A stretch of DNA of 36,334 nucleotides from Butyrivibrio sp. (GTDB lineage: Bacteria > Bacillota > Clostridia > Lachnospirales > Lachnospiraceae). The stretch covers positions 1 to 36,334 of the forward strand of contig JAFZQT010000008.1 of assembly GCA_017620235.1 (NCBI GenBank). Direction: 5' to 3'. The notes beneath the pieces are model-generated. The model worked only from the letters and a program-made list of their open reading frames with translations, was not told the DNA's origin and made no database searches. Both the position numbers and the translations under genes were made by a program. Below are positions 17,755-31,220 of the stretch, piece by piece. Within the stretch, counting starts at the first letter, position 1; the number at the start of each line of letters is the position of its first letter.

Positions 17755-18279
17755 ATGGAAGGCTTTTTTAAACAGGTAGATAAGATCAAGGTTTTATATG
17801 ATGTTACATATAAAATTATGCTCTTTATCTGTAAAATTTTTCTTATTGCAGATATCCTGATCACATCAATGAGTGTTGCCGGAAGGTATATATCTTTTAT
17901 TCCGGATCCGTCATGGAGTGAGGAGATTGTGCTTACACTTATGGCTTATATGGCTGTGTTGTCAGCAGCTTTGGCTATCAGACGCGGTGCTCATATAAGA
18001 ATGACAGCTTTGGACGTTTATTTGCCTAAGAAACTTATACAGGTACTTGACATCCTGAATGACGTTTTTGTATTAGCCCTCGCAATTGTTATGATTGTAG
18101 TAGGATGGAATTATGCGTCAACTATTGGAGCGAAAGGATCATACGTTAGTATCCCTTCACTTTCAAAGTTTTGGTTATATTTCCCAATTCCTGTAGCAGG
18201 TGTTGCCATGTTCGTATTTGAACTTGAGGCAATATACAACGATATTAAAAGCATAGTATTAAAGGAGGGAAATAAGTAA
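17755..18279 (+). CDS. dctQ: TRAP transporter small permease subunit, DctQ family
   Basis: The four-helix membrane subunit that partners the large permease in TRAP uptake. It has the usual length of 174 residues. Four hydrophobic segments lie at about 20-42, 58-78, 98-122 and 140-160. Between the second and third lies the family signature: WSEEIVLTLMAYMAVLSAALAIRR, then GAHIRM. Its start is preceded by AAGAGGA. The stop codon TAA overlaps the ATG of dctM by one base, so the two are translationally coupled. Confidence 0.93.
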   Translation: MEGFFKQVDKIKVLYDVTYKIMLFICKIFLIADILITSMSVAGRYISFIPDPSWSEEIVLTLMAYMAVLSAALAIRRGAHIRMTALDVYLPKKLIQVLDILNDVFVLALAIVMIVVGWNYASTIGAKGSYVSIPSLSKFWLYFPIPVAGVAMFVFELEAIYNDIKSIVLKEGNK

Positions 18280-19577
18280 TGGCAGTAAATTCAACAGCGA
18301 TTGCAGTATTGCTTGTGAGCTTTCTTATAATGATTATGCTCAGATTTCAGATTGCTTATGCAGTAGCATTATCTTCACTTTTTTGTTTAATGTATCAGGG
18401 ACTCCCTCTCACAAACATCTGTCAGCAGATGGTTAAGGGAATCAATTCGTTTAGTATGATGGCAGTTCCATTCTTTATCACGATGGGATGCCTTATGGGT
18501 AGTGGTGGTATATCAGAGAAGCTTATTGCTTTGGCCAACGCTTGTGTTGGTTGGATGACCGGTGGAATGGCGATGGTTAACATCGTTGCTTCATACTTCT
18601 TTGGTGGTATTTCTGGATCAGCAGCTGCTGATACAGCTTCACTTGGAAGTATCCTCATTCCTATGATGGTTGAAGAAGGCTATGATGATGATTTTTCAAC
18701 AGCAGTAACAATTACATCATCATGCGAGGGACTTCTTGTTCCTCCTAGTCATAACATGGTAATTTATGCCATGAGTGCCGGCGGTGTATCCATTGGAAGC
18801 TTGTTCCTTGCAGGATATATACCCGGAGCGCTTCTCGCAATATCACTCATGGTTGGATCATATATTATCTCTAAAAAGAGACATTATCCCAAGGGAGACA
18901 AGTTCAGCTTTGCTCGTTTGTTCAAACAGCTTGGAGTTTCCTTCTGGGCACTTGCAGCAGTAATTATCGTAGTATTTGGTGTTATCGGCGGTATCTTCAC
19001 AGCTACTGAGTCAGCTGCTATCGCTGTTATTTATAGCTTGATTGTAAGCGTTTACATCTACAAAGGACTTGACTGGAAGGGTGTATGGAAGACATTGGAG
19101 AGTTGTATTGATACACTTTCAATCGTACTTATCCTTATTTCTACATCAAGTATTTTTGGATATTGCCTTACAACACTTCATGTACCCAGCATTGCTGCAA
19201 ACATGCTTGTAGGATTCACAAGCAATCCTGTAGTTATCGCACTTTTGATTGACCTTATCCTTCTTGTACTTGGATGTATCATGGATATGGCTCCGATCAT
19301 CTTGATCGCAACACCTATCCTTCTTCCTATTGCTCAGTCAATCGGAATCAATCCTGTACAGTTTGGTATCATGATCGTACTTAACTGTGGTGTCGGACTT
19401 TTGACACCACCTGTTGGAGCCGTTCTTTTCATCGGTTCTGCTGTAGGTAAGGTTAAGATGGAGAAAGTAGTAAAGGCAACACTTCCTTTCTACCTTTGCA
19501 TGATCATTGTACTTCTCCTTCTTACATTTGTACCTGAGATTAGTATGTTCTTACCTAATCTTCTTGGACAAAAATAA
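18279..19577 (+). CDS. dctM: TRAP transporter large permease subunit, DctM family
   Basis: The substrate-translocating, sodium-coupled channel subunit. It has 432 residues and about 12 hydrophobic segments. Family motifs include FFGGISGSAAADTASLGSI in the first half, then PPSHNMVIYAMSAGGVSIGSLFLAGYIPG, and the mirrored CGVGLLTPPVGAVLFIGSAVGK toward the end. AAAGGAGGG inside the end of dctQ serves as its ribosome site. The adjacent downstream YcxB-like gene starts within 12 bases, so it belongs to the same transcript. Confidence 0.95.
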   Translation: MAVNSTAIAVLLVSFLIMIMLRFQIAYAVALSSLFCLMYQGLPLTNICQQMVKGINSFSMMAVPFFITMGCLMGSGGISEKLIALANACVGWMTGGMAMVNIVASYFFGGISGSAAADTASLGSILIPMMVEEGYDDDFSTAVTITSSCEGLLVPPSHNMVIYAMSAGGVSIGSLFLAGYIPGALLAISLMVGSYIISKKRHYPKGDKFSFARLFKQLGVSFWALAAVIIVVFGVIGGIFTATESAAIAVIYSLIVSVYIYKGLDWKGVWKTLESCIDTLSIVLILISTSSIFGYCLTTLHVPSIAANMLVGFTSNPVVIALLIDLILLVLGCIMDMAPIILIATPILLPIAQSIGINPVQFGIMIVLNCGVGLLTPPVGAVLFIGSAVGKVKMEKVVKATLPFYLCMIIVLLLLTFVPEISMFLPNLLGQK

Positions 19578-19588
19578 GGTGATTGATT

Positions 19589-20059
19589 ATGGAGTTTCGT
19601 TATATATCTGATGTAAAACCTAAGGATCTGTGGTTTATAGCCATGGTACGTACATACAGGTCACTTGCGGGAGTTGTAAATGTAGTATTTTCCGCCGCAG
19701 TGTTTATGTTGACGTTTAGGTTTTGGGGAACATCAGGACCGTTTATCAGAACACTGCTTATGTTGGGATGTATGTTATTCCCGGTTATCCAGCCGATTTT
19801 AGTTTATTTAAGGAGCATCAAGCAGCTGGAGACACTGCCGGGCAGAGTAGAGCTTTTATTTGATGATGCCGGTGTACATGTCAGCAGTGACGGGAAGCAG
19901 GAAGACATTAAGTGGAATAAGATCGTAAATGCTATCAAGCAGTCCAATATGATAATTGTCATGTCGGACAGATCTCACGGATATATGTTGACTAATCGTA
20001 TTCTCGGTGATGAAAAAGATGAGTTTTATGATTTTCTTTGTAAAAAGATCAGAAATTAG
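19589..20059 (+). CDS. YcxB-like membrane protein
   Basis: A 156-residue protein with two adjacent TM helices (about 25-45 and 52-73) followed by a small cytoplasmic domain. The domain pattern, LLFDDAGVHVSSDGKQEDIKWNKI followed by IIVMSDRSHGYML, matches the YcxB-like family (strand, strand, then W-x-x-I), whose function is unknown. ATG 19589 is favoured over TTG 19583, as AAGGTGA lies 6 bases upstream. It is placed at the end of the TRAP operon and before the sensor kinase. A role in transport or signalling there is only a guess from position. Confidence 0.75.
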   Translation: MEFRYISDVKPKDLWFIAMVRTYRSLAGVVNVVFSAAVFMLTFRFWGTSGPFIRTLLMLGCMLFPVIQPILVYLRSIKQLETLPGRVELLFDDAGVHVSSDGKQEDIKWNKIVNAIKQSNMIIVMSDRSHGYMLTNRILGDEKDEFYDFLCKKIRN

Positions 20060-20101
20060 CGAATATTAGAAAAAAGATGATGGCAGCGCTATAATACTTT
20101 T

Positions 20102-21628
20102 ATGAGTAAATATAACGCTGCTGTCTTTGTAAAGATGGAAAAATTAAAAAACTTTTGGTACACGATCACAATAAAAAACAAAATATCTCTTTTCACGGGA
20201 AGTGTATTTCTGACAATCCTGGTCGCAGTATTTTTTGATGCGATCCTGATCAGACTGTTTATGATCGATGTGAATAACATAATGGAGGACAATTCCAGAT
20301 GCGGTGAGATAATTACCGTTATCGACAGAGAAACGGAATTGTTCAATCAGTACGTTAACAGCACTACAAGTGAAAATGAGGACGCTTTTAAGCTTGCGAT
20401 GAAGCAGACTAAAACTGCGATTTATGCAATTCCGCTCGATTATGCGAGACTGGGAGAGAATAGATATGCACAGCTTTTTTCGCTTCAGACCTGCTATGAT
20501 GTGTATTGCAAATATAGAGATGATTTGCTTGACGGAAAGCTTCCAAAGAGCGGATTGTACGCTGTATATAATATGCAGAATTATCTGCATAACTATGCCC
20601 AGCGTTTTATCGATCTTACTCTTAAAGAAGGTAACGCCAAGTATAATGAGCTATTGCCAAAAGTTTTCATGGTTCCGATGGTCGCAGTGATACTGGGAGT
20701 GTTATTGTTTTCATCGGTGCTTGAAATTTCAAGAATGATGAACAAGTCTATTATTGACCCTGTGCTGAAACTTGCCAATGCGTCCAGAAGGATAGCGGCA
20801 AATGATTTCAGAGTGGATGATGTTGTCGCAAAGAATCAGGACGAGCTTGGTGAGCTTATCGTGGCATTTAACAAGATGAAGTACGCAACAGGCGAATATA
20901 TAGGCGCTTTAGAGGAAAGAAGAGAGGCTCTTGATAAGCTTCATGCAAAAGAAGTTGAAACTCTTGAAGCAGAAAAGCAGCTTGACGCAATGAATCTGGA
21001 ACTTCTTAAGAACCAGATAAATCCGCATTTTCTTTTTAATACACTTAATGTGATTGGTGGTATGGCAAACCTTGAGGGAGCATCAACAACGGAAGAGATG
21101 ATCGCTGCACTCAGTTCGCTGTTCAGATATAATCTGAAGCATCAGGAGAAGGAAGTTTTGCTTTCTCAGGAACTGAAGGTTGCTGCCGATTATATGTATT
21201 TACAGAAGATGCGTTTCGGGGAAAGAGTGACGTATACAGTTGATTGTAAGGTTAACGCAGATAATGTAATGGTTCCTACATTTACATTACAGCCTATAAT
21301 CGAGAATTGTATTATTCATGGTATATCGCCGAAGGTTGAAGGCGGAACTGTGTCGGTTGAAGTCAGCAGACAGGATGATAAACTTCTGATCACCGTAAGT
21401 GATACGGGAAAAGGAATTGAAGAAAAACTACTTGAAGAAATAAGAGGAAGTTTAGGCGGAAAACAAACCAGTACCATGGGTATAGGCATGGGAAATATTT
21501 TTAGGAGAATAAAGGCTATGTATGAGGATGCGGACATGAAAGTTGACAGCATTCAGGGGAAAGGTACACAGATTACGATTATTCTTCCGTACCGTGCAGG
21601 AGATTCAATTTATACTCGAGGAGACTAA
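20102..21628 (+). CDS. Sensor histidine kinase, LytS/YesM type
   Basis: The membrane sensor of a two-component system. It has a TM helix at about 28-52, an extracytoplasmic region of about 130 residues, a TM helix at about 185-207, HAMP at about 210-265, a coiled coil, then the His_kinase domain with INPHFLFNTLN (phosphorylated His309). The ATPase motifs are LQPIIENCIIHG, VSDTGKGI and GIGMGN. The arrangement matches kinases paired with AraC-type receivers. The start is uncertain: no ribosome site precedes ATG 20102, and TATAAT (20090-20095) ends only 6 bases before it, so the messenger might be leaderless. ATG 20135 is the alternative. It is followed after 3 bases by its regulator gene. Confidence 0.92.
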   Translation: MSKYNAAVFVKMEKLKNFWYTITIKNKISLFTGSVFLTILVAVFFDAILIRLFMIDVNNIMEDNSRCGEIITVIDRETELFNQYVNSTTSENEDAFKLAMKQTKTAIYAIPLDYARLGENRYAQLFSLQTCYDVYCKYRDDLLDGKLPKSGLYAVYNMQNYLHNYAQRFIDLTLKEGNAKYNELLPKVFMVPMVAVILGVLLFSSVLEISRMMNKSIIDPVLKLANASRRIAANDFRVDDVVAKNQDELGELIVAFNKMKYATGEYIGALEERREALDKLHAKEVETLEAEKQLDAMNLELLKNQINPHFLFNTLNVIGGMANLEGASTTEEMIAALSSLFRYNLKHQEKEVLLSQELKVAADYMYLQKMRFGERVTYTVDCKVNADNVMVPTFTLQPIIENCIIHGISPKVEGGTVSVEVSRQDDKLLITVSDTGKGIEEKLLEEIRGSLGGKQTSTMGIGMGNIFRRIKAMYEDADMKVDSIQGKGTQITIILPYRAGDSIYTRGD

Positions 21629-21631
21629 GGA

Positions 21632-22417
21632 ATGTATAGAGTACTGATTGCAGATGATGAGCCTATTGAGAGACAGGTTATATCTAAAAAATTAAATGGT
21701 TTTTTTAAAGACCAGATAGAGATTTTTTTGGCAAAAAACGGAGTTGAAGCCGTTGAAATGATCAAGGAGAAGCATTGTCAGATCGCGCTTCTTGATATTT
21801 CCATGCCCGGAAAGAACGGACTTGATGCGGCGGAAGAGATCAGAACGTTTGATGAGAAATGCAGTATTATCTTTCTCACGGCTTTTGATGAGTTTAGCTA
21901 TGCCAAAAAAGCTATCGAAGTAAGGGCACTCGATTATTTACTTAAACCGGGTGCTGACAATGAGCTTATAAATGTATTGGAAGAAGCATTTTCAATCGCG
22001 GATAAATATGAAACAGAGGTAACTAACGTAGATACTATAAAAAAGAACACTAATGTCTCCGATTTCAATCTTGATGAGAAAGATTTTTCGAAATCGGGAG
22101 AAATAGTGCGTGAAGCAAAAAAATATATAGATGAGCACTATAAAGAAGATATTTCATTACAAGATGTTGCCGGAGTTTTGGGATACTCAGATGTATATTT
22201 CTGCAAACTTTTCAAGCAGAATTTCGGCAAAAGCTTTATAGTATATTTGAATGAACTTAGAATAAGTAAGGCAAAAGAATTTTTGGCAAATCCTGCCATC
22301 AACATCAAAGATATAAGTTCTGAGGCGGGTTACAGAGATGCCAATTATTTTGCCAGAGTATTTAAGCGTATGACGGGGCAGACACCCAGTGAATACAGAA
22401 ACGGAGTCATTGGCTGA
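21632..22417 (+). CDS. AraC-family response regulator (YesN type)
   Basis: DNA-binding partner of the upstream kinase. It is 261 residues long: a receiver (about 1-120) with phosphorylated Asp55 (LLDISMPGKNG), the acidic pair DDEP, and Lys in LLKPG; then an AraC-type double helix-turn-helix in the last 100 residues (ISLQDVAGVLGYSDVYFCKLFK and the family signature ending RVFKRMTGQTPSEYR). It probably activates the dctP operon, given the neighbourhood, but the binding site is not known. AAGGA sits 6 bases before the ATG. Its stop overlaps the next start (TGATG). Confidence 0.93.
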   Translation: MYRVLIADDEPIERQVISKKLNGFFKDQIEIFLAKNGVEAVEMIKEKHCQIALLDISMPGKNGLDAAEEIRTFDEKCSIIFLTAFDEFSYAKKAIEVRALDYLLKPGADNELINVLEEAFSIADKYETEVTNVDTIKKNTNVSDFNLDEKDFSKSGEIVREAKKYIDEHYKEDISLQDVAGVLGYSDVYFCKLFKQNFGKSFIVYLNELRISKAKEFLANPAINIKDISSEAGYRDANYFARVFKRMTGQTPSEYRNGVIG

Positions 22418-23427
22418 TGAAAAAAAGATGGCCCATCGTGGCGATGATAGTATGCATATTTTTAATTATGGTTGCTGTCTTATTCTTTTTTAATAACAAG
22501 AAGAGCAAATCCGATTCGCCGGAATATGTTTTCTTTTACGCGGAGAACCAGACCTCTGATTATCCTACTACATTAGGCGGTCAGAAGTTTGCGGATCTTG
22601 TATATGAGAGAACGGGTGGAAGAATCAAGATAATTGTAAAATATGACGCAGAGCTTGGAAGCGAAGCGGAAGCTATCAATCAGATGAAATATGGCGGAAT
22701 TGCTTTTGCCAGAGTTTCACTTTCACAGCTTGCAGAGAGAATTCCGGCAATGAATGTCCTTCTTTTACCTTTCCTGTATAATGATTCGGATCATATGTGG
22801 AGAGTATTGGAAGGTGATATAGGGGCGGAATTTTTGCTCAAGGCTGATGAATATGATCTCGTGGGGCTATCGTGGTACGATGCGGGTGCCAGAAATTTCT
22901 ACAGCAAGTCAAAACCAATTACTTGTCTTGAAGATTTAGCCGATATGAAGATGAGAGTTCAGGAGTCTTCAATGATGGCGGATATGGTGAGAGCTCTCGG
23001 AGCAAAACCGATAACGGTTGTTTATTCCGAAGTTTATTCAGCGCTCGATCAGGGATATGTAGACGGAGCAGAGAACAACTGGCCGTCTTATGAAAGTATG
23101 AAACATTACAAAGTTGCGAAGTACTATACGATCGACGAACACATAAGAGTTCCTGAGATGCAGGTATGCTCAAAGGTTATCTGGGATATGCTCAGTGAAG
23201 AGGATAGGCAGATAATACGCGAATGTGCACTTGAGTCGGCAACGTATGAGAGGCAGCTTTGGAAGGAGAGAGAAGAGAGTTCCAAGAAGATCGCTTTATC
23301 TAACGGAACAAGGATCTATGAGCTTTCTCCGGAAGAAAAGAAGAGATTTAGAGATGCAATGGATGATCTCTATACCAGGTACTGCGGTGATTATATGGAC
23401 ACGGTACGAAAAATAATAAATTATTGA
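22417..23427 (+). CDS. Membrane-anchored TRAP-type binding protein, probable sensor partner
   Basis: A second DctP-family solute-binding protein of 336 residues. It is anchored by an N-terminal TM helix (about 7-25, IVAMIVCIFLIMVAVLFFF) with no lipobox. The fold signatures are there: GGQKFADLVYERTGGRI, DMKMRVQESSMM with ligand Arg180, and ALDQGYVDGAENN. It overlaps the regulator gene by one base, so it is made with the kinase and regulator, not with the permease. This resembles Bacillus subtilis DctB, a binding protein needed by the DctS-DctR pair for sensing. I infer it presents ligand to the kinase at 20102. The alternative, a spare transport subunit, is less likely. The last 7 bases overlap the convergent agrB gene. 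Confidence 0.88.
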   Translation: MKKRWPIVAMIVCIFLIMVAVLFFFNNKKSKSDSPEYVFFYAENQTSDYPTTLGGQKFADLVYERTGGRIKIIVKYDAELGSEAEAINQMKYGGIAFARVSLSQLAERIPAMNVLLLPFLYNDSDHMWRVLEGDIGAEFLLKADEYDLVGLSWYDAGARNFYSKSKPITCLEDLADMKMRVQESSMMADMVRALGAKPITVVYSEVYSALDQGYVDGAENNWPSYESMKHYKVAKYYTIDEHIRVPEMQVCSKVIWDMLSEEDRQIIRECALESATYERQLWKEREESSKKIALSNGTRIYELSPEEKKRFRDAMDDLYTRYCGDYMDTVRKIINY

Positions 23428-24002
23428 TCATGAGAGCCTTGTCTGTGTGCAAATTTTCCGGTTATTGCAGTGATACTGAGAAAAGCGAAGGTTATGGCTT
23501 CGAGCATCAGATAAGAGTTGTTTTTATAAAGAATAAGAAGGATGGATATACCGGTTGCAAAAAGAACCGTTATATTCGTCCTTTTTTTGAATTTCATATT
23601 TTCGGATGCATCAACTTCTCTGTTTGGATGATCGACGGGGCCTGTCATGATAATGATAACGGCAGAGAAAGCGAAGATCATAAATGAGGCGCAAAGAGGG
23701 AGCGTGAAATATTTTACTGCAAGAAGCGTTGATGTGAGAATAAGGCATGAGCCGATATAGCATGCAAAAAAGCTCTTTAGATGCAGTCCGCCTCCGAAAG
23801 AACGCATAGGGATAAATAAGAGAAAGAAAAAAAGACATGGAAGGAGCATTTTTAGAAAAAGAGCTATGATGATACTTGTAGCGGTGCTCAAAGCTATTTC
23901 CAGTGAGCATAGTAAACCGTATTTGTATAGATCATAATCTTTTTCTTCAATAACACCTTTGCTTAATATGTAATCTGTTAGTTTCTTTGCGAGATATTCC
24001 AT
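23421..24002 (-). CDS. agrB: AgrB-like peptide-processing membrane protease
   Basis: Cuts the C-terminal tail from the AgrD peptide and closes the thiolactone ring. It has 193 residues with about five or six TM helices. The catalytic pair of this cysteine protease family is intact: His74 in GGGLHLKS and Cys81 in FFACYIG, seven residues apart, exactly the spacing of His77/Cys84 in Staphylococcus aureus AgrB. Arg67 precedes in the conserved PMRSFGGG. The loop GPVDHPNREVD is also family-typical. It lies 16 bases downstream of the agrA-like gene with AAGGA as ribosome site, thus agrA-agrB is one leftward unit. Its substrate is probably the small agrD at 26399, 2.4 kb away on the other strand. Confidence 0.92.
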   Translation of the reverse strand: MEYLAKKLTDYILSKGVIEEKDYDLYKYGLLCSLEIALSTATSIIIALFLKMLLPCLFFFLLFIPMRSFGGGLHLKSFFACYIGSCLILTSTLLAVKYFTLPLCASFMIFAFSAVIIIMTGPVDHPNREVDASENMKFKKRTNITVLFATGISILLILYKNNSYLMLEAITFAFLSITAITGKFAHRQGSHDQ

Positions 24003-24018
24003 TATCCTTGCGTTGCCC

Positions 24019-24759
24019 TTATTCGGTATAGTTACTGTCGCCTATCATTTCAACAATTTTTCTTCGGACGTCTTTTTGCCTGTTTTCGCTTATCTTAAGG
24101 CAAAACTCGTTGTTGCCATAGTTTATCGTCATACTGCTGTAATTCATTCGGCATACGTATTTGTAATTAACCAGATATGACTGGTGAATTCTGAAGAAAT
24201 ACTGACTTGAACTTTCAAGCTCTTTCTCAATGTCGTTTAGTTTTCCGTAGAAAACGTCGCTTGTGCCGTCGTTTAGATGTATCGTTATAACGCGATTCTT
24301 ACTTTCAAAGTAAACGATATTGCTTATTGAAGTCTTTTTCACCTTCCTGTTATATGTATACTGAAAATAGCCCTCTGCCTTGTCTATTCTGGTGAGCGCC
24401 TGTGAAAAGTATTTTTTGAATATTTTTTCGTCTATGGGTTTTGAAAGAAATCTGAAAGGCTCGACTTCAAAGAGTTCTTTGAGATAACTCTCATAATTTG
24501 AAACGTAGATAATAAGCGAGTCTTTGTCTATTGTGCGGATCATGCGGGCAGTTGTTATTCCGTCAAGCTCTTTCATCTCAATATCAAGAAAGATTATGCT
24601 GTAGCGGTCGCCTTTAATAACACTGCGTGCAAGTGGAGAGCCGTCATAAAAAACATCAATCTCCGGACGGATTCCTCTTGCAAGACATTCGGTGTTTAAA
24701 AGCGTTTCGAGTTTGCCGGAAAGCTTTACATCATCATCGCATATTGCAATCTTTATCAT
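24019..24759 (-). CDS. agrA: LytTR-type response regulator, AgrA-like
   Basis: The transcriptional end of the peptide quorum-sensing circuit. It has 246 residues: an N-terminal receiver with CDDD at 7-10 and phosphorylated Asp59 (IIFLDIEMKELDG), Lys in FLSKPID, then a LytTR DNA-binding domain (about 140-240) with ISNIVYFESKNRVITIHL and FFRIHQSYLVNYKYV, both standard for the family. The ribosome site GGAGGT is 6-7 bases before the ATG. The promoter faces that of the kinase gene across a 219-base region, which presumably includes its own binding sites. Confidence 0.92.
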   Translation of the reverse strand: MIKIAICDDDVKLSGKLETLLNTECLARGIRPEIDVFYDGSPLARSVIKGDRYSIIFLDIEMKELDGITTARMIRTIDKDSLIIYVSNYESYLKELFEVEPFRFLSKPIDEKIFKKYFSQALTRIDKAEGYFQYTYNRKVKKTSISNIVYFESKNRVITIHLNDGTSDVFYGKLNDIEKELESSSQYFFRIHQSYLVNYKYVCRMNYSSMTINYGNNEFCLKISENRQKDVRRKIVEMIGDSNYTE

Positions 24760-24836
24760 ATCCTACCTCCAATATCGGGTAAAAAAATTTAAGTCGGAAA
24801 CAAAAGTGCAGGATCGTTTTAAATATTGTCTATGGT

Positions 24837-24866
24837 AGTATAGCACCTTTTTTCAAAAATGTGCAA
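24837..24866 (-). promoter_or_regulatory. Promoter of agrA-agrB
   Basis: Read leftward: TTGCAC (24866-24861), an 18-base spacer ending in TGC, and TATACT (24842-24837), an extended -10. It is 78 bases before the agrA start. Confidence 0.6.
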
Positions 24867-24878
24867 AAACCGAGAAAC

Positions 24879-24904
24879 TTACATAAAACCCCGTAAATAT
24901 TACA
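24879..24904. promoter_or_regulatory. Candidate LytTR operator between the divergent agr promoters
   Basis: TTACA occurs at 24879-24883 and again at 24900-24904, in the same orientation and 21 bp apart, two helical turns. LytTR proteins bind direct repeats with this centre-to-centre spacing. The repeats are short and lie midway between the two promoters. Confidence 0.35.
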
Positions 24905-24929
24905 AATTGAAAAAAGATTACCTTTTTTA

Positions 24930-24938
24930 TGTTATTAT
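24930..24938 (+). promoter_or_regulatory. Candidate promoter of agrC-agrD
   Basis: TGT followed by TATTAT (24933-24938), an extended -10. TTGAAA at 24907-24912 is 20 bases upstream, longer than ideal. It is 40 bases before the agrC start. Confidence 0.45.
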
Positions 24939-24978
24939 CTATAACAGATGGTTTTAAAGGAAAGAAGGGGCTTATAAA

Positions 24979-26289
24979 ATGGGTGAGTATATGTCGGTTA
25001 TTACAGGAGTTTTCTTAGCTTTTCTTCAAATCATGATCGTTCGGAAATTGATGGACGTATTCTTACAGGAACGGAGCAATAATATAATCAAATATGTTGT
25101 CTGGGCAATGTATTTTACGTTTGCTGCTGCGGTAAGCCTGACGGATATAGTCAGACCGGTCATTCTGATAAGTTCGAACATTCTGTTTATCTTTGCATTA
25201 GCGATTCTTGACAGAAAAGCCACGATAAAGGTAGCATGCTTTTTCTCAATCATAGTATGTGCGGTCTGGATGCTGGTTGAAGTCGGATCTGTGATCGTAG
25301 TTGAGATGTTTGGCATAGACTTTGTTGAAAATCGGGACGCAGTCTGCTTTGTTTCCCTTCTTTTAATGCTTTTACTTGTAGTAATCTTGAACAAGTCATG
25401 GAAGGGACCCAAATACGGTGATATTCCGATCAAGTATTTTATAATGATTCTTTCTATACCGCTTATCAGTATTTATCTTACAAACCGCATTTTTCTGATA
25501 GCGTCGCATCACAATGAATATAGTAACTTTGCGGTAATTTCAAGTTTTTTTCTCCTATTGATGAATTACATAATCTTTGAAGTTTATACATGGGTGAGCC
25601 GGGATGCAGAGCTTAAATCCCTGAATAAGCTGTATGGTCAGCAGCTCGAGCTGTGCAGCAGACAGGCGGCAGAGCAGGAGCAGCTCTATATGGAAATAAA
25701 AAGGACAAGACATGACATGAAAAGCCATCTTGCAAGTCTTCTTGGAATGGTCGAGTCCGGGGAAAAAGATGAAGCGGTCAAATATATACAGCAGCTTCTT
25801 GCAGATGGACTCGGAAGATCAAGCGAAGAGATATCAAAGAGCGGTAATATTGTCGTTGATTCGCTTGTAAATTATAAGTATTCTATTGCGAAAAAAGAAG
25901 GAATTGCATTTGAGGCATCTACTTTTGTACCGGCAGTTCTTCCATTTAAGAGCGAGCATCTTGTAATTATCCTTGGGAATCTTTTAGAAAATGCATTTGA
26001 TGCATGTATGAAGGTTCAGCCAAAGGGGAGATATATCCGGCTTGATATGAACTATGAAAAGAACATGCTTAAGATAAGTATTAAGAACAGCTGTATTTTT
26101 GAAAACAGACGTGACAGACACGGAAGATTCTTTTCAACAAAACATGATGCGGAGCATCACGGAATAGGACTTGCATCGATCAATCAGGCAGTTTCGGGAT
26201 ACGACGGCGAAGTAATCATCGATGATAAAGGCAATCAGTTTAATGTTGATGTAATTATGTACGGAAAAGAAGAAATTGATAATCCGTAA
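24979..26289 (+). CDS. agrC: AgrC-like peptide sensor histidine kinase
   Basis: Receptor for the cyclic peptide. It has 436 residues: six or seven TM helices in residues 5-205, a coiled linker, and a GHKL-type kinase domain. Motifs are RTRHDMKSHL with phosphorylated His245, GNLLENAFDAC (N box), and HGIGLASI (G box). This layout is that of AgrC and its relatives, with the receptor entirely in the membrane. It sits divergently from agrA-agrB and 109 bases upstream of agrD, completing the circuit. ATG 24979 has AAGAAGGGG about 10 bases upstream. ATG 24991 is a possible alternative start. Confidence 0.9.
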   Translation: MGEYMSVITGVFLAFLQIMIVRKLMDVFLQERSNNIIKYVVWAMYFTFAAAVSLTDIVRPVILISSNILFIFALAILDRKATIKVACFFSIIVCAVWMLVEVGSVIVVEMFGIDFVENRDAVCFVSLLLMLLLVVILNKSWKGPKYGDIPIKYFIMILSIPLISIYLTNRIFLIASHHNEYSNFAVISSFFLLLMNYIIFEVYTWVSRDAELKSLNKLYGQQLELCSRQAAEQEQLYMEIKRTRHDMKSHLASLLGMVESGEKDEAVKYIQQLLADGLGRSSEEISKSGNIVVDSLVNYKYSIAKKEGIAFEASTFVPAVLPFKSEHLVIILGNLLENAFDACMKVQPKGRYIRLDMNYEKNMLKISIKNSCIFENRRDRHGRFFSTKHDAEHHGIGLASINQAVSGYDGEVIIDDKGNQFNVDVIMYGKEEIDNP

Positions 26290-26322
26290 AAATTACATGA
26301 ATACCTGTTTTTTCTACATCAA

Positions 26323-26376
26323 GTAATATTTTTCTGCAATCAGAAGTATAATTATTGCAGAAATATTACGTTTTTT
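26323..26376 (+). promoter_or_regulatory. Hairpin between agrC and agrD (attenuator, or promoter with operator symmetry)
   Basis: Arms 26323-26340 and 26354-26369 pair over 16 bp with a two-base bulge. The 13-base loop region is followed by G and six T, as in an intrinsic terminator. However, a perfect TATAAT (26347-26352) lies between the arms, so the same symmetry could mark an operator on an agrD promoter. Either way agrD expression appears separately controlled from agrC. Confidence 0.6.
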
Positions 26377-26398
26377 AGGATTAAGGAGGGTATTCAAG

Positions 26399-26542
26399 AT
26401 GAAAAGAGAGAGAACTTTTATTGCAAAAATGCTAAAAGGAATTGCGCAAACGTCAGTTATGGCTAGTATTGACAGAAGGTGCATATATATTATGCATCAG
26501 CCTAAGATGCCTTCTGATATCGGAGAATTCAGCAAAAAATAA
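26399..26542 (+). CDS. agrD: AgrD-like autoinducing peptide precursor
   Basis: A 47-residue precursor, too short for most gene finders. It has a basic amphipathic N-terminal helix (MKRERTFIAKMLKGIAQ), a central MASIDRRCIYIM, and a charged tail beginning HQPKMPSDIG. This is the three-part plan of AgrD. Cys28 and Met32 fall at the same residue numbers as in S. aureus AgrD-I, whose ring is CDFIM and whose tail has the matching P-x-x-P-spaced residues. The predicted product is a five-residue thiolactone CIYIM with a short N-terminal tail (perhaps SIDRR or part of it). AAGGAGGG lies about 8 bases before the ATG, and a terminator follows the stop. AgrB, AgrA and AgrC are all encoded within 3 kb. 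The mature N-terminus cannot be fixed from sequence. Confidence 0.88.
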   Translation: MKRERTFIAKMLKGIAQTSVMASIDRRCIYIMHQPKMPSDIGEFSKK

Positions 26543-26550
26543 ACATTAAA

Positions 26551-26585
26551 AATCCCCATAAGTTTGATGCTTATGGGGATTGCTT
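26551..26585. terminator. Bidirectional terminator after agrD
   Basis: Perfect 12-bp stem AATCCCCATAAG (26551-26562) with 26570-26581, loop TTTGATG, A-rich before and T-rich after. It lies between agrD and the leftward gene ending at 26604. Confidence 0.88.
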
Positions 26586-26603
26586 TTGGTAAAAAATTAA
26601 AAA

Positions 26604-28349
26604 TTATTTTTCAGCGAGCCAGTCATAACGTTCAATGTCGATACTGCTGATCGTGTTCTTTTCGTCGTTAAGATAGAGCTCGATTGTTTCCTTAGGAAAC
26701 TCTGATTTATCATTCTTATCAAAAGGAATCTTGTATGTGTTGAATTTCTCATTATATACAAAGTTGGTTATTCCTTTTTCATTAAGTTTCTTTTCAAGGT
26801 CTGCCTTAGACATGCCAAGTTTGATGTCTCCTGCGATAGTAAGATCAAGAGGATTAACTGTGCTGTTAAATGCAGATATGAAAACAACAATTGTATTATC
26901 AAGTGTCACAGCATTTGGAAGAGGATTGACCACTTTAGCCGTTATGCTGTAGTCGCCCTTGGACAATGTAAGGATCACACCGTTCATCGAAGGTACCGAT
27001 TCGGATCCACCTGTGCATTTCCAACCCTGTTCGGCAAGTGTCTTGTACGGAACGGGTAAATTGTATGTTTGTCCATCAAGAGTGAAATTACCTGATAAAA
27101 CGTCGTCGCCAAGTTTCAAAGGAGCTTTGTAGAGACCTAAATAATCAGGAGTTTTATTGCTTACTGTGGGCTGTACAAAATCAGCGGGCATTGTCTTGTT
27201 GCGTATGCTGATAAATGTCAGGACGTTGTTTTCGAAGCTATACGTCGCAGACATGTTGAATTCGTCTTCTTTACCTTTTCCTCTGTAGGTGAGTGTTACC
27301 GAATTGCCGCTTGTATTGGTGCTGTTTGGCTCACCGAGCTCGGATTTTACTTCATCTACAGTTGTTTTCTGCAATGTAAACTTATCGTTGCAGAATTTTA
27401 CTTCTGCGCCTGTCATCTTTACAAATGAGTCTGAGAAATCACAATCATAGACCATACATTTGGAAAGAGGCTGCGCATCTATAGAATGATTGATAATTCC
27501 AAAGTACTGTGAATCCTTACCCTTTCCGGAGTAATTTAACTTAACCGATTCGCAATCGCCGGCATACAATGTCTTGTCTGCATCTGCTTTGTCGTCATAA
27601 GTCCAACCGTTTGCAAGAAGTTCATCGATGCTCATAGGGAGAGCATACTGCTTGCCGTCCACGCTAAAACTTGAAAACATTGCAGACTCATTGGCTGAAG
27701 CGTTATTGGGCTTAGGTACAACAGGCGCAGGGCCCGGATTCTTTGAACCGGTTGTTGTAGTCGGATTCTGCTTTGCTATTATATTCTGCTCGTACGGATT
27801 GGTACGATTTGAATTGGTACTGAAAAATAATGCTGTTAATACGATTACTGCTGCTATAGATGAACCCAGCGCAACTGACTGGGGAGTCAATTTCTTTTTC
27901 TGTGGCTGAACATATCCGGGATATGGGAACTGCCCCATATTTGCCTGATAGGGCTGTCCGTACTGGTTGTACATAGGTTGCTGCATGGGCTGTCCGTATC
28001 CGTTGTTCATAGATTGTTGCATAGGCTGACCAAACTGATTATTCATGGGCTGTGGATAAGGCTGTCCGTAAGGATTCATGACAGGCTGCTGATAACCCTG
28101 CTGAAAAGGCTGTGCGTTTGGATTGCCATAGGGCTGTCCGAAATTCTGAACATTCTGATCGGCAAAAGGCTGCTGATAACCCTGTTGATAGGGCTGTGTG
28201 TAATTCTGAGCATTTTGCTGCATATTTGTACTGTCCATCTGATTTTCCGGCTGAAATTTATCTAGTTCTACAGTTTGAGCAGTATCATATGATAACTGAT
28301 TATTTGTAATTGGTTGTCCTGTTATAGGATCATAATTTATTTGGCTCAT
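26604..28349 (-). CDS. Single-pass surface protein with a Gln/Pro-rich cytoplasmic tail
   Basis: A 581-residue protein without a signal peptide. Residues 1-43 begin SQINYDPITGQPI. Residues 44-150 are a low-complexity tract of units like GQPMQQPMNNQY. A KKK stop precedes one TM helix at 159-177, giving N-in, C-out topology. The outer 400 residues contain two related modules, each opening with a F-x-x-D-G-x-x-Y segment (FSVDGKQYALP, FTLDGQTYNLP) and each with a motif like TTVDEVKSELGEPN, also found in the two small lipoproteins at 32875-34258. Function is unknown; cell-envelope sensing or adhesion are possibilities. ATG 28349 is chosen over 28379 because GGAGGT lies directly upstream of it and would be inside the longer version. 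Confidence 0.8.
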   Translation of the reverse strand: MSQINYDPITGQPITNNQLSYDTAQTVELDKFQPENQMDSTNMQQNAQNYTQPYQQGYQQPFADQNVQNFGQPYGNPNAQPFQQGYQQPVMNPYGQPYPQPMNNQFGQPMQQSMNNGYGQPMQQPMYNQYGQPYQANMGQFPYPGYVQPQKKKLTPQSVALGSSIAAVIVLTALFFSTNSNRTNPYEQNIIAKQNPTTTTGSKNPGPAPVVPKPNNASANESAMFSSFSVDGKQYALPMSIDELLANGWTYDDKADADKTLYAGDCESVKLNYSGKGKDSQYFGIINHSIDAQPLSKCMVYDCDFSDSFVKMTGAEVKFCNDKFTLQKTTVDEVKSELGEPNSTNTSGNSVTLTYRGKGKEDEFNMSATYSFENNVLTFISIRNKTMPADFVQPTVSNKTPDYLGLYKAPLKLGDDVLSGNFTLDGQTYNLPVPYKTLAEQGWKCTGGSESVPSMNGVILTLSKGDYSITAKVVNPLPNAVTLDNTIVVFISAFNSTVNPLDLTIAGDIKLGMSKADLEKKLNEKGITNFVYNEKFNTYKIPFDKNDKSEFPKETIELYLNDEKNTISSIDIERYDWLAEK

Positions 28350-28377
28350 CTCAGAGTGACCTCCACATGCATTAATC

Positions 28378-28407
28378 ATTATAAATATTTTATTGTATAA
28401 TTAACAA
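28378..28407 (-). promoter_or_regulatory. Promoter of the 26604-28349 gene
   Basis: Read leftward: TTGTTA (28407-28402), an 18-base spacer, and a perfect TATAAT (28383-28378), 29 bases before the start codon. Confidence 0.6.
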
Positions 28408-28467
28408 TTTGTAAATATAAATTAACAAAAAATAAATATTTAGATTAGAAAAAAACGTAAAAAAATA

Positions 28468-28476
28468 TGGTAAGAT
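28468..28476 (+). promoter_or_regulatory. Candidate extended -10 for the 28538 gene
   Basis: TGG followed by TAAGAT (28471-28476). No convincing -35. The region between the two divergent genes is very A+T-rich. Confidence 0.35.
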
Positions 28477-28537
28477 AGTATTAGATTTAAATATTGAAGC
28501 AAATCCTGTTTTGTTAACGGTGTAGGAGGTGCGTATT

Positions 28538-28792
28538 ATGATGATTTCTGCTGAAGGTTATAAGTCCATGCATGAGAACGATTCAATTGATGAACTTATA
28601 GCGGCACGTAAGCAACTTGTAGGAGAATTGGAACAGCTGGAAAAGATAGTACGTGATACTGACAGAACGGACGAATCATGGAATGAGGGTCCGGGACCGG
28701 ATGTGCGCTATCACATGACACTTACGTATCTTGTGCAGATCTGTGAGCTTTTATGGACAAGAGTCAGCAAGGAAGTGTCATGGGATGAATAA
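28538..28792 (+). CDS. Small helical protein of unknown function
   Basis: An 84-residue soluble, acidic protein. Residues 14-42 form a heptad-like amphipathic helix (DELIAARKQLVGELEQLEKIV), then a short linker with NEGPGPDVRYHM and a second helix ending KEVSWDE. I do not recognise the family. TAGGAGGT lies about 7 bases before ATG 28538, which makes GTG 28529 (overlapping that site) unlikely as the start. Together with the next small coiled-coil gene it precedes a chemoreceptor gene, but no link in function can be shown. Confidence 0.7.
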   Translation: MMISAEGYKSMHENDSIDELIAARKQLVGELEQLEKIVRDTDRTDESWNEGPGPDVRYHMTLTYLVQICELLWTRVSKEVSWDE

Positions 28793-28817
28793 GCACTTTT
28801 AAATGTGAAAAAAGGGA

Positions 28818-28863
28818 TAGACTATAACGAAATGTGATGATATAATTAACATGTTCACATTTC
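28818..28863 (+). promoter_or_regulatory. Promoter flanked by an inverted repeat
   Basis: TAGACT (28818-28823), a 17-base spacer, and a perfect TATAAT (28841-28846). The -10 lies between the arms GAAATGTGA (28829-28837) and TCACATTTC (28855-28863), and a third copy AAATGTGA stands at 28801-28808. This is the geometry of a repressor site over a promoter. Confidence 0.6.
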
Positions 28864-28960
28864 TTTTATATGCATGAGATGTGGACATCCGTGCAAATTG
28901 AAATTTTTATATGAGGTGGTATTTATCAATGTTTTTGGTTGATAGATACCGCCATTTTTA
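28852..28960 (+). ncRNA. Candidate small RNA or attenuated leader
   Basis: The promoter at 28818-28846 predicts a start near 28853. At 28915-28953 a 15-bp stem with two G-U pairs (arms 28915-28929 and 28939-28953, 9-base loop) is followed by ATTTTTA, terminator-like. A transcript of about 105 bases would result, or a leader whose hairpin limits reading into the 28998 gene. No open frame with a ribosome site lies inside. Confidence 0.4.
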
Positions 28961-28997
28961 TTAAGAAGCTAACGCTTATTTGGAAGGAGATTGAAAA

Positions 28998-29273
28998 ATG
29001 GATGCACAGAACTTTTTGACGATGAGTATGGACGAGCTTGCAAATGAGATTTCTGAGACAAAGAAGAAATTATCTGCTCTTGAGCAGCTTATGAAGATTC
29101 GTCAGCAGTTGGGGGAGAGAACGACGAGGCAGATTGAGGCTAAGAAGAAAGCTGAGAAGAGAGCTGCTTTGAAGAATGGATCCGCAAGCGCTTCTACAGC
29201 GGCGTCTAATACAACTGCTGAGTCTGAGTCAGGGTTCGGACATGATTTCTTTGGCGAACGCGAAGAATTCTAA
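28998..29273 (+). CDS. Small coiled-coil protein of unknown function
   Basis: A 91-residue soluble protein. Residues 8-57 form one long charged helix (DELANEISETKKKLSALEQL, then KKKAEKRAALK). A Ser/Ala/Thr-rich linker and an aromatic-acidic end (GFGHDFFGEREEF) follow. The C-terminal short motif after a disordered linker looks like a peptide that docks to a partner, but this is an inference. GGAAGGAG lies 8-10 bases before the ATG. It lies downstream of the candidate attenuator and upstream of the broken chemoreceptor gene. Confidence 0.72.
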   Translation: MDAQNFLTMSMDELANEISETKKKLSALEQLMKIRQQLGERTTRQIEAKKKAEKRAALKNGSASASTAASNTTAESESGFGHDFFGEREEF

Positions 29274-29433
29274 TGAATACGGATAAAGAAATAGAAATTG
29301 TGTGTCAATTATAATAGGAGTATAAACAATTTCTTAATTATCGGTATAACGCACGATTATTTGTTTGAATTGCGCTATAATTATTTGTATCGACGAAGTG
29401 TATTTTCTTTTTGGAGGAAAGGAGTGCATTTAA

Positions 29434-31220
29434 GTGAATAATAGCGCAGAAACAAAAACAGATGGAATTAATTTTTTTAAGAAGATTGGGTTTCAGAATT
29501 TAGCTGTAAATGTAGTTATGCTTGTAATGTTCGTTATCGCGATAGTGATCATGGACAGTAACATGAAGAATATTATCAATATTTCTGTAACTGCAAGCAA
29601 TGACGAGATACAGCTACTTAGCAAAGAGGCAAGGCTTAGAGAAAATCTTATTACTATTGACGGTAATCTTTCAGCCCTGCTCGGTGCAGTATCAATGGGA
29701 ACAAACGATCCCGCAAACTATGAGGTGTATTTCACCAATATTGATACTGTAGAAAAAGAGATGCCTGATCTTCTTTCTTTTATGCAAGGAAGTATTTTGG
29801 TTACTCGGGGTGAGAACGGCGCTGCACAGATGGAAGAAATTATGAGTACCACAAATACTTTTTTGGATATTACAAATGAGATGGTTGTAGCACTTCGAGC
29901 AGCGGATGCCGGTACTGCCATGAATATATATATAGATAAATATGTGGATCATCAGGCTGTTGTGTATGCTGCATATGATAATGTAGAAAATGCTATTGCC
30001 GTGCTTGGAGAACAGCTAAAAGATTATCTTGATACGATGTATGGTAAGGCGTTTGTTAAGACCATTGTTTTGGTAGTGATATTCGTGATAATCATTGCTG
30101 TCAGCCTTGTTCTGAATGAGATGAGAATCAGTAAGAAGATAACAGGTATAGTATCTGAACTTCAGAAAATCATCCATGGCATCAATAATAATGAAGGTGA
30201 TCTTACGGCACGTATCGAAACCAAGACGTCTACGGAACTTGCCTTTGTTGTAGGAGGTATCAATAACTTTATCGAGACCTTGCAGGGCGTTATAAAAGAA
30301 GTTAAGGATGGCTCCATGGTTCTTAATTCGTCATCCGATTCAATGACGCTTAAGATCGAGAAAGCAAGCGATAATATAACAAATACATCGGCTGCTCTTG
30401 AAGAGTTGTCAGCAAGTATGGATACAGTATCGACAACCGCCGATCAGATCTCCGGAAAGCTTGATGAAGTTAAGACAGCGACCGATGAGATCAGACAGGA
30501 AGCTGCAAACGGTGCAGAAACAGCCGAGAATATTAAGAAGGAAGCTGATGAGATCAAGAATGAAGCTCTCAGGAAGAAAGAGAATACAGGCGTGAAGGTT
30601 GAAGAACTCAGCGCGGTTCTTGAAAAATCAGTTAAAGACAGTGAGAAGGTTGCACAGATCAATGAACTTACCAAGGTTATTCTTGATATTGCATCACAGA
30701 CAAACCTTCTTGCGCTTAATGCTTCAATCGAGGCAGCCAGAGCCGGTGAAGCAGGTAGGGATTTGCGGTTGTTGCTGAAGAGATCAGCGCACTTGCCGAT
30801 AACAGCCGACAGACAGCCGGAAATATCCAGACAATCAGTAATGAAGTTACAGAAGCGGTTAATACGCTTTCAACAAACGCCATGGATGTTATCCAGTTCA
30901 TCAATAACGATGTACTTAATGACTATGATACTTTCGTTGAGACCAGTGATAAGTATGAGAATACCGCAGTAGTAATGGATGACATTCTCGATAAATTCAA
31001 CAGAAAAGCTGATAACCTCAACACTATCATGGACAAGATGGCAGATTCGGTTGAATCTATCACTGAGTCGGTAAAAGAGAGTACTCAGGCAATCAACCTT
31101 TCTGCGGCAAATTCTTCCGAGATCGTTGGCCAGATCCAGGGAATCAGCGAAGCAATGGGAGAGAACAACAAGGTTACAGAACAGCTTAACAGCAGTACTA
31201 AGCGCTTTGCCAACCTGTAA
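29434..31220 (+). pseudogene. Methyl-accepting chemotaxis protein gene, broken by a one-base deletion
   Basis: The intact form would be about 595 residues: TM helix about 20-42, a four-helix-bundle-type extracytoplasmic sensor of about 160 residues, TM helix about 205-227, HAMP, and a chemoreceptor signalling domain. The hairpin tip TNLLALNASIEAARAGEAG (from residue 423) is perfect, then the frame goes wrong at 30758-30760. AGG GAT TTG should read AGG GGA TTT GCG GTT GTT GCT, that is GFAVVAEEISALADN, which continues in the next frame to 31220. One G is missing from a G run. Read as is, the product has 512 residues with a nonsense tail and no second arm of the hairpin. GTG 29434 is the start, preceded by AAAGGAG. 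It could be a sequencing error, a phase-variable tract or true decay. Confidence 0.88.

Follow-up and report, generated by a model that had tools for sequence, protein, structure and literature searches.

Does a 47-residue reading frame in a relative of Butyrivibrio encode the precursor of a cyclic signal peptide, and does the likeness of its predicted ring to a staphylococcal signal carry any meaning for communication between species? Both questions are raised by positions 26399-26542 of the window, the whole 36,334-nucleotide stretch of contig JAFZQT010000008.1 that was analysed. The evidence gathered here leads us to regard this frame, with a probability of about 90%, as agrD, belonging to an agr-type quorum-sensing locus with its full gene set in a Butyrivibrio relative. 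The features concerned are:

26399..26542, plus strand: agrD, 47-residue AIP precursor (translation, TIGR04223 match, orthologues)
26383..26389, plus strand: agrD ribosome binding site AAGGAGG, invariant among the six close loci aligned
26551..26581, plus strand: hairpin between agrD and a convergent gene for a 591-aa protein (fold and shuffles)
24979..26289, plus strand: agrC, sensor kinase (HATPase_c_5/GHKL), 436 aa (PF14501, 74.7 bits)
24019..24759, minus strand: agrA, response regulator with receiver and LytTR domains, 246 aa (PF04397, 55.5 bits; PF00072, 48 bits)
23421..24002, minus strand: agrB, membrane peptidase, 193 aa (PF04647, 125.3 bits)
26293..26352, plus strand: predicted AgrA-dependent agrD promoter (putative function from repeats and -10 geometry)
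24879..24938, plus strand: predicted AgrA-dependent agrC promoter (putative function from repeats and -10 geometry)

Translation of 26399-26542 reproduces the frame described in the original prediction, with 47 residues, a sole cysteine (Cys28) and a methionine at position 32. The comparison with AgrD profiles that had been proposed there bears out the family assignment: residues 7-38 match NCBIfam TIGR04223 with 24.1 bits (E 2.9e-5; curated cut-off 19 bits), while a Pfam search of the 47 residues gave no match. In its own genome (2.70 Mb in 144 contigs, 86% complete), this is the single AgrD match over the cut-off, and there is one copy of AgrB. A crude Cys-Pro DNA pattern tried as an AgrD finder was uninformative (74 matches vs 79 expected). 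The build of the peptide falls within the range of known precursors (40-50 residues), with 47 residues, Cys28 and a tail (residues 33-47) that carries Pro35-x-x-Pro38 and whose 15 residues fit the length of 14-15 given in PMC10482373. Like the TIGR04223 family, it combines the cysteine, a ring of five and an xQP..P tail, and a five-residue thiolactone ring, Cys28-Ile-Tyr-Ile-Met32, is predicted. The leader is basic as expected (net +4), but its amphipathicity is weaker than predicted: 1194 of 5000 shuffles had a hydrophobic moment as high as that of the window copy, which is no better than shuffles; the counts for three orthologous AgrDs were 183, 506 and 33 of 5000. The strong ribosome site was found as predicted, with AAGGAGG 9 nt from the ATG, and so was the hairpin downstream, with 13 pairs, a folding energy of -20.9 kcal/mol (26540-26592) and none of 200 shuffles equally stable. 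Its T-run on the plus strand is short, though (GCTTTT), and it probably terminates transcription of agrD and, read the other way, of the 591-aa gene. Judged from its sequence, 26399-26542 is a real small gene and encodes a genuine AgrD, the precursor of the cyclic signal in agr-type systems.

The AgrB, AgrA and AgrC homologues said to lie within 3 kb are placed as claimed, each identified by its Pfam domains. AgrA scores 39.1 bits against the AgrA equivalog model NF046049, well below its cut-off of 400. In AgrB, Arg67, His74 and Cys81 (His74 and Cys81 being the catalytic pair) are invariant in 10 orthologues, with the same seven-residue spacing as R70, H77 and C84 of S. aureus AgrB. A search of solved structures gave no match for AgrB and only chance-level matches for the AgrD profile.

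The system is conserved in part of the genus. Among 79 genomes sampled, 10 carry the window-type AgrC (E up to 1e-30); these are exactly the 10 that carry the window-type AgrB (E up to 1e-20). An AgrB search matched Butyrivibrio sp. M55, B. hungatei NK4A153, Butyrivibrio sp. LB2008 and B. hungatei XBD2006. All 10 genomes have an AgrD orthologue downstream of agrC, either directly after it (six loci, the window's among them) or at a distance of about 1.6 kb (the other four). These orthologues are 28-69% identical to the window copy, and across the 10 sequences A9, K10, L12, R27, C28, H33, Q34, P35 and P38 are invariant. Had close relatives lacked the frame or Cys28, the original prediction would have been contradicted; both are retained. 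The cysteine and the tail prolines are kept whereas the ring changes: CIYIM, CMYIM (twice), CMYLM, CMFLY, CMFVL, CMMYG (twice), CFMYG and CYMYL. In the comparison with locus L047, identity is 96.7% for AgrA, 94% for the kinase part of AgrC and 83.6% for the flanking TRAP-binding protein, vs 81-86% for the sensor part of AgrC, 73.8% for AgrB and 71.4% over 42 residues for AgrD. By these identities, the parts that would make and read the signal are the most variable, as in known agr groups. Arg27, directly before the ring cysteine, is present in all 10 orthologues vs one of 31 other readable AgrDs, a difference from the TIGR04223 family at large, as is the new ring sequence. The invariant arginine may mark a different N-terminal cut.

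The arrangement of the genes departs from the common one. Here agrA and agrB lie on the minus strand and agrC and agrD on the plus strand, so that agrD and agrB are 2.4 kb apart on opposite strands rather than adjacent in one operon. In a 30-locus family sample, surveyed with a profile built from 10 AgrBs that more distant AgrBs may escape, 20 of the 30 loci have an AgrB no further than about 1.5 kb from AgrD, and wherever the AgrD strand was called (17 of these loci) the two genes share it; in the genus sample, the two are near each other in one of 15. The S. aureus agr system (agrBDCA, AIP-I) has the same four gene types, the same Cys28 and Met32 limits and paired 9-bp sites (PMC10482373), but it forms one operon; here the agrA-agrB pair is read away from agrC and agrD, and a putative promoter of its own precedes agrD. 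In Clostridium autoethanogenum (agrD1-C1-B1 and agrD2-C2), agrD likewise stands beside agrC, system 2 has it separated from agrB, and Pro-x-x-Pro is also present; agrA is not nearby in that organism, whereas here it adjoins agrB and diverges from agrC (PMC8748961). Given these precedents and the order agrACDB in C. difficile (PMC3754575), the layout in the window is a variant and not a new kind. The split layout with its twin promoters is mildly interesting. Other agr types also occur in the genus, with agrB-agrA-agrC-agrD on one strand in one locus (L057) and agrA-agrC-agrD, agrD lying just after agrC, in two others (L056 and L058).

Both plus-strand genes are preceded by paired direct repeats. 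Those of agrD, TTACATGAA (26293) and CTACATCAA (26314), are 21 bp apart and are followed, 33 nt from the second repeat, by TATAAT at 26347-26352; those of agrC, TTACATAAA (24879) and TTACAAATT (24900), are also 21 bp apart, with TATTAT at 24933-24938. This period equals that of S. aureus agr P2, where two 9-bp LytTR sites are separated by 12 bp (PMC10482373). Across the six close loci, TTACAT-GAA, the second TACAT 21 bp on and TATAAT are all kept in the agrC-agrD gap, as is TTACAT...CCGTAAATATTACA in the agrA-agrC gap, and a LytTR/AgrA-type box precedes agrC in six genomes. In the four distant loci, no box was found before agrC at up to 3 mismatches, and the only box found lies after agrC, ahead of a gene with a VTC domain. 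The 10 loci together hold 16 paired-repeat boxes, of which 15 have a hexamer with at least 5/6 identity to TATAAT exactly 33 nt from the second repeat, and the remaining one at 34.

The search pattern for these boxes was built from these very sites, so that its perfect matches there are partly circular. At up to one mismatch, all 13 matches in the 10 genomes are at agr; at up to three, there are 111 matches vs 144 for a reversed control. A 60-nt form of the pattern, derived from the same sites, matched twice in the window and never in 100 shuffles. When the agrD site of the window was used as the query within the window, the agrC site tied for second to fourth place (17/24 positions), and with three orthologous agrD sites as queries it ranked next after agrD. 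This direct comparison favours the paired boxes only moderately. A looser composite pattern (up to 2 mismatches) gave 128 matches vs 77 for its reversed control in the 10 genomes, with one zero-mismatch match away from agr (G069 C13:191274). Two-mismatch sites away from agr occur in the own genome (C59:33665) and in G050 (C56); the former was rejected as an AgrA target, lying by eye inside a carbamoyltransferase-like frame (L090). The search of the 10 genomes established no further target beyond agr, although weaker ones may exist. In the six loci of the close group that were read, the VTC genes showed no such box by eye, and Rfam over 20000-30000 found no family, including no RNAIII-like RNA such as accompanies agr in S. 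aureus. If the boxes act, autoinduction of signal and receptor would proceed apart from agrA-agrB.

A VTC-domain match lies between agrC and agrD in all four distant loci (L052-L055); in L053 (2101-3587), the VTC-domain gene is followed by a DUF4956 gene and then by agrD. In these four genomes, the VTC gene behind the box is a candidate for direct control by the system. The 591-aa protein convergent on agrD in the window (26604-28379, minus strand) has a Gln/Asn/Pro-rich N-terminal part and matches no NCBIfam or Pfam family above cut-off; its gene neighbours agrD in all six close loci, with 44-81% identity in five relatives. Before agrB (17755-23427, plus strand) are TRAP-transporter-like genes, a sensor kinase, an AraC-type regulator and a DctP-type binding protein, and the binding-protein gene is found beyond agrB in all 10 loci.

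From these parts a working scheme can be proposed. AgrB, from the agrA-agrB operon on the minus strand, would cleave AgrD on the C-terminal side of Met32 and close the ring CIYIM by a thiolactone link between this residue and Cys28, and a second protease would release the AgrD-derived peptide. AgrC would sense the peptide and phosphorylate AgrA. By binding the repeat pairs upstream of agrC and agrD, AgrA would then increase the expression of both genes. The resulting positive feedback would act on receptor and signal precursor, and not visibly on agrA-agrB. A more detailed version is offered tentatively, and we think it somewhat more likely to fail as a whole than to hold. It combines a split loop, in which agrD and agrC have their own AgrA-type promoters, agrA-agrB stay outside and the boxes occur almost only at agr, with a second group of four genomes in which the box after agrC would drive the VTC gene and agrD in one transcript, and with an invariant Arg-Cys junction that would yield a tailless or Arg-tailed ring.

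Other explanations of the locus fare poorly. A chance reading frame would be in keeping with the shortness of the gene and with the empty Pfam search, but the AgrD match over the cut-off and orthologues in all 10 loci at 28-69% identity speak against it; since the frame is conserved, this explanation is refuted, and we give it next to no credence. It is also very improbable, if less extremely so, that AgrD and AgrB are vestigial and that AgrC-AgrA answers another cue, the peptide no longer being made. The distance of agrD from agrB would agree with such decay, as would the departures from the S. aureus pattern in leader amphipathicity and at residue 34, which is Gln here and a reportedly required Glu in S. 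aureus AgrD (PMC10482373). Decay is, however, hard to reconcile with the retention of frame, ribosome site, promoter geometry and Cys/Pro residues in 10 loci and of the catalytic residues of AgrB. Third codon positions also change the most against each of five relatives, which speaks against decay, although nonsynonymous codons outnumber synonymous ones in all five.

The original prediction went further and saw in CIYIM, with its IM end, a similarity to the S. aureus ring CDFIM that raised the chance of cross-species signalling. In its strongest form, the peptide would not be a self-signal and would act chiefly on other species, for example on staphylococcal receptors, which we consider about as improbable as decay. 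Cys28 and Met32 do coincide with the ring limits given for S. aureus AgrD-I (PMC10482373), and the two rings do have Cys, Ile and Met in common. Nevertheless, only three of the 10 orthologous rings end in IM, and a cognate AgrC lies next door and co-occurs in all 10 loci. A wider tally covered 41 AgrDs readable from 45 loci (L007, L101, L106 and L109 were left out), nine of them from the own orthologue group, with 30 loci being the best-scoring of the family sample. Ile is the commonest residue at ring position 4 (18/41), and a ring ending in IM occurs in three of the 41, all from the own group and one being the window's. What matches is the residue most often found at a position that varies; it is therefore no conserved trait, and the resemblance to the S. 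aureus signal looks like coincidence. The Asp that follows the cysteine in AIP-1 is needed to activate its receptor, and its replacement by Ala gives a cross-group inhibitor (PMC10482373). Neither Asp nor Glu stands there in the window AgrD or in any of the 41. Competitive inhibition of AgrC tolerates much variation in AIP sequence (PMC10482373), which leaves some room for an effect on other species. By analogy, activation of a staphylococcal receptor by the CIYIM peptide is therefore unlikely, and inhibition, while possible, would not set this peptide apart. A search of 397 family genomes for the coding pattern CIYIM-x-[QE]P matched two, the window's and one (L154) where the match overlies a hairpin between transporter-like frames and is not an AgrD. 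Together with the ring statistics, this search gave no support to the cross-species reading, nor do the sequences compared support any special signalling to staphylococci.

In the preferred reading, an agrD gene serving its own agr-type locus, the kind of gene is ordinary, the ring sequence new and the layout somewhat unusual. Liu et al. reported agrA/agrB in 199 rumen species (PMC9540692; also PMC10838665), and their work shares with ours the presence of agr genes in rumen bacteria; the available passages of PMC9540692 describe neither an AgrD peptide nor a locus layout or a promoter. Agr genes have been counted in the genus before, and the peptide was not found described in the literature searched on Butyrivibrio, Lachnospiraceae or rumen AgrD, a weak absence given the sparse coverage of subscription journals. 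The locus offers an exact, testable peptide with a predicted CIYIM ring, together with its putative receptor, for a fibre-degrading rumen genus, and a compact example in which the signal gene of an agr loop would be wired separately from the maturase.
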